DNA of 39,783 bases, taken from NCBI GenBank assembly GCA_012841575.1, contig DUUL01000030.1:1-39783 (forward strand), read 5' to 3'. Positions within the stretch are counted from its first letter, which is position 1. Each line of letters starts with the position of its first letter. The notes beneath the pieces were generated by a model that saw only the letters and a list, made by a program, of their open reading frames with translations, made no database searches and was not told where the DNA came from. The translations under genes were made by a program, and so were the position numbers. The DNA comes from Candidatus Moraniibacteriota bacterium (GTDB taxonomy: Bacteria; Patescibacteriota; Minisyncoccia; Moranbacterales; DUUL01). This document shows positions 32,948-35,854 of this stretch, piece by piece.

Positions 32948-35854
32948 TTAGTTAACCCTTACTTTTAAATTTTTTCTTTCTAATGAAACAATAATTTCCC
33001 TCATCAATTCATCTACTTCTTCTCCTGTCATTGTACGCTCATCTTGTCCAAAACTTAAATGAAAGGCTAGTGATTTTTGTTTAGTTTTTTGGTTTAAAAA
33101 AACATCAAACAGTTCAAGCTTTTTTAATGAATCGCCCGCAACTTGTCTTATAGATTTCTGCACAGACTCAACTGAGGTAAATTCTGGTGCAAATAACGAG
33201 ATGTCTCTTAAAACCCAGGGAAATTTAGGCAATGGCTGATAGATTTTACCTTTCTTCCCCAAAAACTCAAGTAGCAATTCAAAATCCAAATCTAAAAATA
33301 CTACTGGTTTTTTAATAGAATACTCAACAGCAAGTTTTGGTTCGATAATTCCCAAACGAGCTATTTCTTTTTTATTAATAACAATCACCGCCTCTCTGCC
33401 AGCCTGAAAAATATTTCTACTTTTTACCACTTCTTTAAATTCAAATTTCTCCACTGAAAGATTTTCTAATATGTTTTCTAGTGCACCTTTCATCTGATAA
33501 AACAACTTTTCTGCAGAAAGATTTTTATTAAAAATAACTGCTGCAAGTTTCAACTTTTCTATTGGCTCACCCATTTTGTTTTTCTCACAAATCCGAGCTA
33601 ATTCAAATATCCTGAACTCATCAAAATAGCGTGCATTATCGCCAGTCTTACGCAACATCATTGGCGCTAAGCTCAAACGCATTAAAGCCAGATCCTCACT
33701 ACTTGGTGCAATAATCTGCCAATGACTTTCTTCATCTAGACCAAAAATTTCTGCGTCTTTTTTGCTATAAAAAGAATAATTACGCAATTCATCAAAGCCC
33801 TGAGCTAACATCAAGTCCTTAATTTTCCACTCCAGATCTCTTCGTTGATTTACTGTGGGAACTTCTACTGAAGTAATTACTTCTCGAGCCTTTACTTTTT
33901 CGTAGCCTATTATCCGTCCAATTTCCTCAATTAAGTCATTTACTCCCTCAATGTCCAATCTCCATTCAGGCACTCTTACTTTTAATTTATCTTGCTCACC
34001 TTTTTGCACTGAAAAACCTAAGTTTCCCAAAATCGCTTTTCCTTCAATGAACTTTATTTTTTCTCCTAATAATTTTTCTGCTTTTTCTAGATTTAAAATA
34101 AGATTCTGTTTTTTAGACTGATGATAATTTTTATCCACCACTTCCAACAATTTTGCCCCAGCATACCTTTCCAAAAGCTCAATCGCTCTAAACATCGCCT
34201 GTTCAGCCAAAGTAGGAGAAAGTTCTTTTTCAAAACGTGCCTGTGATTCTGTGAGTAAAGAATGTCGCTGTCGACTCTTACGAACCCCAAAACCACTGAA
34301 GTGAGCTGATTCCAAAACAATTTTTGTTGTTTTTTCAGAAACTCCACTTTTCAAACCTCCTTTTATTCCAGCTAATGCCAGTGGCTTCTCTCCACTTGCA
34401 ATCAATAAATCACTTTCATCTAAAACTATTTTTTTCCCGTCTAACAACTCTAAATTTTCCTTTTTCTTTGCTTGTCGAATAACAATCTTCACTGCTTCCT
34501 TATCATCTTTAATTTTTTCTAAATCAAATGCATGAAGTGGATTTCCTACCTCCAACATTACATAGTTAGTAATGTCCACCACATTATTTATCGGCTCCAT
34601 CCCTGCCACTAACAATCTTTTTTGCATCCATCCTGGAGAGGGCTTAATTTTGATATTTTCTAAAACCGCCCCCATATATCGCGTGCACCCTTTCTTATTT
34701 TCCACATTAATTGTCAAGATTTTTGGTTTTCTAGTCGTAGTCCTTGCTTTTGTTTTTTTCAACTTTAATTTCCTCCCCTCCATTGCACAAATCTCCCTTG
34801 CTAAGCCAATGTGGCTTAAGCAATCGTGTGCTCGATTCGGCAAAATCGAAAATTCTAATATTTCATCATTAAACCCTAATGCCTTGGTTAATTCCATCCC
34901 CGGCCTTAACTTATCCACCTTCACTAAAGAATTTTTTTCACCTCCCCGTTCTAAAATTAAAATCCCTTCATGATTTTTTCCTAACATCAGCTCATCTTCC
35001 GCACACAACATTCCTTGAGATTTTACTCCTCTTATTTCTGTCGCTTCAATCTTCATTCTACTCTTGGGCACAATTGCTCCCACACACGCCACTGACACCC
35101 AATCATCTGTTTGAATATTTTTTGCTCCACAAACGACTTGCAATAAACCATTTCCACTGTTTTTACCATTCAAATAAGCCCAGTCTATTCTATCCTTACT
35201 TTTCAGCCTATTCTTAAGTTGACTAGCTTTAAATTTTTTTATAAAACGCTTACTCAAAACTAAAGCCCTTACTCCATTCAACTCTCTCTCCTTCTTCTCA
35301 AAATCATCTAGAGTTAGACCAAAATCTCCAGTAAAAAATCCCAAGTCAATTTCGATCTTAGCTTCATCTTGATAAGTCGCATTAGACAACTTATCGGTTA
35401 ATTTATTTTTTCCTATTTTTTTAAAACCCAGTTCTTCTAATAATTTATCTAACTTTTTAAACTGCTCTTTGTTTTTAACAATCAAATCTAAGTCACTATG
35501 TTCTCTGTAAACTATCCCTACATGAAAAGCACAAGCAAGACCACCGAGCAGCCAAGTTTTTATGCCCTTCTTTTCAGCTTCCTCTCTTATTTTTTTTAAC
35601 GAAGATAAAGTTAAATCTGTTTTCTTAAATGAAGATTTTCTATTTCCAATGTCTACCTTTACCACCTGCAGTCGATCAGCATTAGGATGTGGTTTGATTT
35701 CTAAAATCCTCCCTACACAAAAATCAACATACTGATCTTTTATTTCTTCACCTCCCTCAAACTCAAAACCTTTCAATCCCACCATTTCTGCCAATTTCCT
35801 GACAGTTTTCTTTGTCCCTGACAACTCCTTTAGCCATTGATAAGAATATTTCAT
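32948..35854 (-). CDS. pheT: Phenylalanyl-tRNA synthetase beta subunit with an inserted nucleotidyltransferase domain
   Basis: Beta subunit of the alpha2-beta2 PheRS. It starts MKYSYQWLKELSGTK, followed by the tRNA-binding OB fold GRILEIKPHPNADRLQVVKVD (48-68). The fold is then interrupted after about residue 71 and resumes near 235 with LLQVVCGAKN, VACVGAIVPKSRMKIEATEI and GVKSQGMLCAEDEL. The B3/B4 domain follows (NVVDITNYVMLEVGNPLHAFDL), then B5, the catalytic-like core and the C-terminal FDX-ACB domain (FPWVLRDISLF onward). The total is 968 aa, whereas PheT is usually about 790-810. Removing the insertion gives about 805. pheS is not adjacent or in the window. The start is preceded by AAAAGG. 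Confidence 0.95.
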   Translation of the reverse strand: MKYSYQWLKELSGTKKTVRKLAEMVGLKGFEFEGGEEIKDQYVDFCVGRILEIKPHPNADRLQVVKVDIGNRKSSFKKTDLTLSSLKKIREEAEKKGIKTWLLGGLACAFHVGIVYREHSDLDLIVKNKEQFKKLDKLLEELGFKKIGKNKLTDKLSNATYQDEAKIEIDLGFFTGDFGLTLDDFEKKERELNGVRALVLSKRFIKKFKASQLKNRLKSKDRIDWAYLNGKNSGNGLLQVVCGAKNIQTDDWVSVACVGAIVPKSRMKIEATEIRGVKSQGMLCAEDELMLGKNHEGILILERGGEKNSLVKVDKLRPGMELTKALGFNDEILEFSILPNRAHDCLSHIGLAREICAMEGRKLKLKKTKARTTTRKPKILTINVENKKGCTRYMGAVLENIKIKPSPGWMQKRLLVAGMEPINNVVDITNYVMLEVGNPLHAFDLEKIKDDKEAVKIVIRQAKKKENLELLDGKKIVLDESDLLIASGEKPLALAGIKGGLKSGVSEKTTKIVLESAHFSGFGVRKSRQRHSLLTESQARFEKELSPTLAEQAMFRAIELLERYAGAKLLEVVDKNYHQSKKQNLILNLEKAEKLLGEKIKFIEGKAILGNLGFSVQKGEQDKLKVRVPEWRLDIEGVNDLIEEIGRIIGYEKVKAREVITSVEVPTVNQRRDLEWKIKDLMLAQGFDELRNYSFYSKKDAEIFGLDEESHWQIIAPSSEDLALMRLSLAPMMLRKTGDNARYFDEFRIFELARICEKNKMGEPIEKLKLAAVIFNKNLSAEKLFYQMKGALENILENLSVEKFEFKEVVKSRNIFQAGREAVIVINKKEIARLGIIEPKLAVEYSIKKPVVFLDLDFELLLEFLGKKGKIYQPLPKFPWVLRDISLFAPEFTSVESVQKSIRQVAGDSLKKLELFDVFLNQKTKQKSLAFHLSFGQDERTMTGEEVDELMREIIVSLERKNLKVRVN
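35153..35641 (-). other. Inserted LnuA/ANT-like nucleotidyltransferase domain inside PheT (residues 72-234)
   Basis: In-frame insertion between two beta strands of the tRNA-binding OB fold. Motifs in order are WLLGG (101-105), REHSDLDL (117-124, catalytic D121 and D123), LEELGFKK (139-146) and IEIDLGFF (168-175, third acidic residue D170). A C-terminal helix SKRFIKKFKASQLKNRLKSK with IDWAYLN follows. The order G-G...H-x-D-x-D...D and the length (about 155-160 aa) match single-domain lincosamide/aminoglycoside nucleotidyltransferases such as LnuA. The catalytic triad is intact. Confidence 0.85.

Follow-up and report, generated by a model that had tools for sequence, protein, structure and literature searches.

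A predicted nucleotidyltransferase nested in the OB fold of a patescibacterial phenylalanyl-tRNA synthetase, and the recurrent nesting of enzymes in aminoacyl-tRNA synthetases

Why does the beta subunit of phenylalanine--tRNA ligase (PheT), an essential enzyme of translation, carry what appears to be a second, complete enzyme within its tRNA-binding OB fold, and how could that enzyme have come to lie there? The locus is found on a contig of 39,783 nucleotides from Candidatus Moraniibacteriota bacterium (DUUL01000030.1), which was analysed as a whole and is called the window here; it is the entire contig C19 of genome G000, an assembly of ~1 Mb in 131 contigs with ~4% contamination. The pheT gene (32948..35854, minus strand, as are all features of the gene given below) encodes 968 amino acids in a frame that runs uninterrupted from 35854 to 32948. 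It is present as a single copy, with one B5 and one B3/4 match in the whole genome. The protein matched TIGR00472 of NCBIfam with 694 bits against a cut-off of 402.65 (E = 2.5e-208), and Pfam detected the B3/4, B5, FDX-ACB and CLM domains, the B3/4 editing domain (34157..34687) being intact. The genes next to pheT resemble DXS and an O-antigen-ligase-like membrane protein, judged from sequence alone.

The Pfam match to the OB fold (tRNA_bind/EMAPII-like) was interrupted. Its first part, residues 43-71 (35642..35728, an approximate boundary), ends in VDIGN, and its second part, residues 235-302 (34949..35152), includes LLQVVCGAKN and is the best stretch of the Pfam match, starting at position 27 of the 96 in the profile. 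Between them, in frame and at a beta-turn of the fold, lie the insert proper, residues 72-231 (35162..35641), delimited by Pfam, AlphaFold, Foldseek and homologues, and a linker, NSGNG (residues 232-236, 35147..35161), which leads to the next OB strand and was recognised from the sequence and from alignment with PheT proteins in which the site is empty. PheT of related genomes is uninterrupted at this point, the alignment showing a loop of ~5-7 residues (for example, VKVGLGKGKETQIVCG and AKVDLGRYGRDIQVVCG). An earlier reading of the letters, referred to here as the sequence-only reading, had described a PheT of 968 amino acids in whose OB fold an in-frame domain sits at a beta-turn, with canonical sequence intact on either side; the uninterrupted frame, the split tRNA_bind match and the resumption of the fold at residues 235-302 bear this description out. 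Its coordinates for the insert (35153-35641) also hold, with the qualification that its count of 163 residues takes in the first residues of the linker. As the host strands are intact on both sides, PheT in all likelihood folds and functions as usual.

We then asked what the insert is. Searched alone against Pfam, it matched NTP_transf_5 (4e-9) and Aminoglyc_resit (2.3e-7), both over the cut-offs, with scores against the gathering scores of PF10706 and PF14907 of 31.5 versus 21 bits and 36.9 versus 31.2 bits, respectively. A profile sequence search likewise retrieved ANT(2'') and Lnu proteins. An AlphaFold2 model of the insert, with nine natural copies in the alignment, reached a pLDDT of 91.3 and a pTM of 0.85, and a Foldseek search of the PDB with this model placed LnuA first (4fo1, E = 6.4e-7), followed by ANT(2'')-Ia (query TM up to 0.73) and MenT1 (TM 0.62-0.67). 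When residues 1-330 of PheT were modelled as a fusion, pLDDT was mostly >90 in the inserted part; the OB part was poor and the alignment shallow. The GG motif of the nucleotidyltransferase fold is represented by WLLGG (residues 101-105, 35540..35554), the metal-binding DxD by D121 and D123 in REHSDLDL (residues 117-124, 35483..35506), and the third Asp by D170 in IEIDLGFF (residues 167-174, 35333..35356); we take D121, D123 and D170 to be the catalytic carboxylates. Taken together, the profile matches and the model identify the insert as a predicted minimal nucleotidyltransferase (NTase) of the LnuA/ANT(2'') type. Both the family and the motif triad had been assigned correctly from the letters, and the Pfam and structure searches that had been suggested as a check returned this fold.

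Narrower assignments were rejected. The insert is not an Lnu(A/C/D/P) or ANT(2'')-Ia resistance protein proper, scoring at most 22.9 bits against NCBIfam cut-offs of 300-350. Kinship with the MenT toxins, which had also been raised, holds as a structural likeness to MenT1 and not as membership of the MenT/AbiEii toxins, since the insert gave no Pfam AbiEii match and no antitoxin gene adjoins it; PADLOC reported an AbiEii match (7e-4) in one of the nine NTase copies. Nor is the insert an intein, as Pfam found no HINT domain and the junction residues vary among copies.

Is the nesting peculiar to this contig? A search of 10 genomes of the same family revealed a copy, 52-54% identical, in a genome of another genus (G003, WGDO01000025.1), again within PheT and this time in the B5 domain, after SKSRTDADLTLTNAEDVN and before LDYIIPTRRRDL. 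The search for the insertion in PheT of other Patescibacteria, which had been suggested as a check, thus found it in the same host and at a different site. A class-wide search detected an NTase copy within leucyl-tRNA synthetase (LeuRS), and a profile search of 131 genomes of the order returned seven strong matches, every one nested in a synthetase frame of 958-1102 amino acids. Two of these are the PheT copies and five are in LeuRS, the latter in five other families and all at a single site in CP1; identity of the LeuRS-nested homologues is 46-54%. A distant copy from another class is nested in UvrC, where it splits the RNase H domain (L119:1010-3349, plus strand). The sole free-standing member of the subfamily that was found, of 152 amino acids, is encoded on a contig of a Nanoarchaeota MAG (L019:5124-5582, plus strand) and covers precisely the core that is nested elsewhere; its neighbours are archaeal genes for ribosomal protein and RNA polymerase. 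The nine subfamily copies formed one clade in a tree (100/99), separate from other free-standing NTases, with weak inner branching and a long UvrC row; one letter of an outgroup row (L006) was altered in the input of this tree, with no bearing on the nested copies. Weaker matches elsewhere were free-standing genes of a different subfamily. The NTase is thus nested at four sites, distributed over three host genes. The 131 genomes of the order yielded no free-standing copy, and the presence of the NTase in only seven of them indicates that it is dispensable.

In viral contigs, neither a single-sequence search nor a three-row profile found a relative; in genome contigs the single-sequence search found none, and the three-row profile did retrieve relatives. 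In plasmids there was a single match, weak and partial, and in phages and PHROGs there was none. The searches covered publicly deposited assemblies, of which many are probably MAGs, and the genome of the window is fragmented (131 contigs, ~4% contamination), which could favor an assembly or binning chimera. We consider this extremely improbable, because the insert is complete, in frame and of a base composition near that of its host gene, and homologous nested copies, one of them in PheT too, occur in independent assemblies. The sequence-only reading knew of no description of such an architecture, and a search of the open-access literature also found none for a nested NTase, an agreement that does not by itself prove novelty.

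The nine copies also allowed us to ask whether the nested domain is likely to be an enzyme. In the alignment, whose conserved core is ~155-160 amino acids long, GG and DxD are present in nine of nine copies and the third Asp in eight of nine, and residues K139, D151 and D154 (alignment numbering) are invariant as well, at an overall identity of ~50%. Such conservation suggests that the NTase itself is under selection, because the host reading frame bars stop codons but not the loss of motifs, and at the level of sequence it argues that NTase activity has been selected. In G003 the nested copy has Val in place of the third Asp and may therefore be inactive. This replacement, along with the low frequency of the NTase in the order, would fit a decayed domain or a non-catalytic structural spacer, a reading that the motifs and invariant residues retained at such divergence render very unlikely.

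Other enzymes are nested in the synthetases of these genomes, and LeuRS in the family of the window is likewise unusually long on account of guests other than the NTase. LeuRS of G000 itself (L045, G000:C36:22800-26900) contains an RBBP9-like serine hydrolase (PF06821, 7e-14) at residues 496-647, adjoining the zinc-ribbon region. Most relatives likewise have a LeuRS in which Pfam detected a nested PF06821 hydrolase, and several have one with a Nudix domain. In the order as a whole, 18 of the 20 above-cut-off PF06821 matches in frames >600 amino acids lay in synthetases, in 14 genomes, with 14 in LeuRS, two in ValRS and two in IleRS. Weak hydrolase scores, or the identity of the frame as the synthetase, underlie the IleRS matches and two of the 14 in LeuRS; low-scoring frames >850 amino acids that look secreted by eye (G395:C12, G440 and G462) are left out of the count. 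Many free-standing copies exist besides. The hydrolase is also found as a guest outside the synthetases, between the halves of a group-1 glycosyltransferase (L128:1353-3248, minus strand). An IleRS of 1408 amino acids (L129:2351-6574, plus strand) carries a nested histidine phosphatase (PF00300, 3e-33), and one LeuRS (L134:878-4501, plus strand) carries both a PD-(D/E)XK domain (PF13366, 1.9e-31) and a serine hydrolase, at separate sites. The bias of the hosts towards synthetases is real in this sample, and a pure passenger model does not explain it.

With an insert-free LeuRS as the reference, the insertions map to three sites (residue 257, residues 382-398 and residue 469), of which the second holds the NTase, Nudix or the serine hydrolase depending on the lineage; the Nudix domain in CP1 of LeuRS from L046, L047 and L048 (Pfam) and from L054 lies where other families have the NTase. 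In the LeuRS tree the NTase-bearing proteins are not grouped in a single clade, so that the NTase either is old and was later replaced in some lineages or entered more than once. The LeuRS of L015, which also bears the NTase, has a 133-residue ASCH-like insert after residue 469 (18.0 versus 21.2 bits, under the Pfam cut-off). In LeuRS of G094 (L005), the first insertion loop, before EVYTTRLDT, holds VIASEAKQSRTEESNSEIAASPSAPRND, which resembles a translated short palindromic repeat, and short in-frame repeats occupy LeuRS loops in other genomes.

Does the preference for synthetases mean that the NTase acts on tRNA? A transferase that extends, repairs or silences the 3' ends of synthetase-bound tRNA or aminoacyl-tRNA, or that serves in quality control, would provide a reason for the placement. 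The hosts are indeed mostly synthetases, the NTase being housed at two sites of PheT and in LeuRS, and the hydrolase in LeuRS, IleRS and ValRS. The LeuRS site of the NTase lies within the CP1 editing domain, and MenT1, which the insert resembles in structure, is reported to be a tRNA 3'-end NTase toxin (PMC10435456), as is MenT3 (PMC11541572). However, the more distant member resides in UvrC, a DNA-repair nuclease, the two sites within PheT are unrelated to each other, and the small-molecule NTases LnuA and ANT(2'') are closer to the insert by both structure and Pfam. Further, Nudix and the serine hydrolase, with chemistry unlike that of an NTase, occupy the same LeuRS sites. The logic of a transferase held beside bound tRNA-Phe, put forward in the sequence-only reading, is therefore not supported as a general explanation; given UvrC and the unrelated sites, a tRNA-directed role is possible and not supported, and we consider it unlikely. 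A broader proposal, which we judge distinctly unlikely as a joint claim, would have the synthetases serve as a docking chassis, a few fixed loops of LeuRS, IleRS, ValRS and PheT being ports that, over evolution, exchange unrelated enzymes acting on tRNA, aminoacyl-tRNA or aminoacyl-adenylate, and the captured NTase, Nudix and serine hydrolase being lineage-specific quality-control or tRNA-silencing modules.

The junctions were inspected for traces of the mode of entry. Direct repeats at the junctions, as a target duplication would leave, were not above the background given by random positions in the same gene, and the repeat TGGAAAT at the NTase junctions in the window was not significant. Pfam found no transposase, endonuclease or splicing domain in the insert. 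A transposable or homing element was rejected, there being neither direct terminal repeats nor target duplication above background, and no mobility enzyme. A related short in-frame repeat, GCAGACTTAACGCAGACTAACGCGGAAGA, occurs at the NTase junction of G003 pheT (L118, ~4100) and in the LeuRS insertion loop of G002 (L053, ~2150, minus strand); this 29-base repeat has two mismatches to the motif at the N-terminal junction of G003 and one in G002, and none was found in a shuffled control. The shared repeat may mark permissive loops or repeat-mediated recombination, two sites being too few to tell.

Could the nested NTase be a selfish or dedicated mobile cassette, one that travels among essential genes and is kept since its precise removal is unlikely? 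The same repeat would fit, as would the four sites of nesting, spread over three host genes, and the lack of a free-standing copy in the genomes of the order. Such a cassette would be at odds with the lack of mobility or splicing domains and of terminal repeats or target duplication above background, with the absence of relatives from the viral contigs and phages searched and the single weak match in plasmids, and with the presence of several unrelated enzymes at the same sites. In addition, the LeuRS copies of G094 and G409 pair in both the LeuRS and the NTase trees, suggesting vertical descent. We therefore regard the cassette as quite improbable.

The explanation that we consider probable is the in-frame capture of a whole NTase gene in the OB turn of PheT, as one case of a recurrent process in which the chemistry of the guest is kept. 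A compact NTase gene, stripped of its start and stop, would have entered the surface beta-turn, and if the ends of the guest lie near each other, the insertion could be accommodated with the host still folding. The NTase would then fold as an autonomous, tethered enzyme and retain nucleotidyl transfer; by analogy with LnuA and ANT(2''), its substrate would be a small molecule or a nucleotide. The same few insertion-tolerant loops would take in the NTase, the RBBP9-like serine hydrolase, Nudix, histidine phosphatase and PD-(D/E)XK domains, the recipients being large housekeeping proteins, chiefly the class Ia aminoacyl-tRNA synthetases. A guest nested in an essential gene that is always expressed may gain constant expression and a shield from deletion as the genome shrinks.

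Apparently active, whole enzymes are thus repeatedly embedded in essential translation enzymes, in the same few loops, and are swapped among relatives. If the pattern holds, it offers a natural data set on where large enzymes tolerate the insertion of domains, suggests how accessory functions may persist in reduced genomes, and makes it possible to test whether nested enzymes cooperate with the synthetase or merely ride on it. It also carries a warning that length outliers among the core proteins of Patescibacteria, which are common phylogenetic markers, may hold foreign domains.

Among known systems, LnuA and ANT(2'')-Ia (PF10706, PF14907) share with the insert the fold (TM 0.67-0.73), a similar length, GG, DxD and the third Asp. 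Unlike them, the insert is nested in PheT rather than free-standing, and it falls far under the NCBIfam Lnu and ANT cut-offs (22.9 versus 325 and 19.2 versus 350 bits). MenT1 has the superfamily fold in common with the insert, which differs in having neither a Pfam AbiEii match nor an antitoxin gene and in being embedded in an essential enzyme. Accessory domains of synthetases, such as the CP1 editing domain, are likewise in-frame domains, and the editing domain of LeuRS has itself been described as an insertion-exclusive module (PMC13114784); the guests described here, in contrast, are whole unrelated enzymes, interchangeable at one site and present in part of the lineage only. Inteins are also in-frame protein inserts in housekeeping genes, but the insert has no HINT domain, its copies have no splice-junction pattern in common, and its core is an NTase. 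Rickettsia palindromic elements are short, non-enzymatic DNA segments that lie in frame in the surface loops of many proteins. The insert differs from these in being a complete, conserved enzyme, although in some genomes the LeuRS loops used for insertion do hold short repeats.
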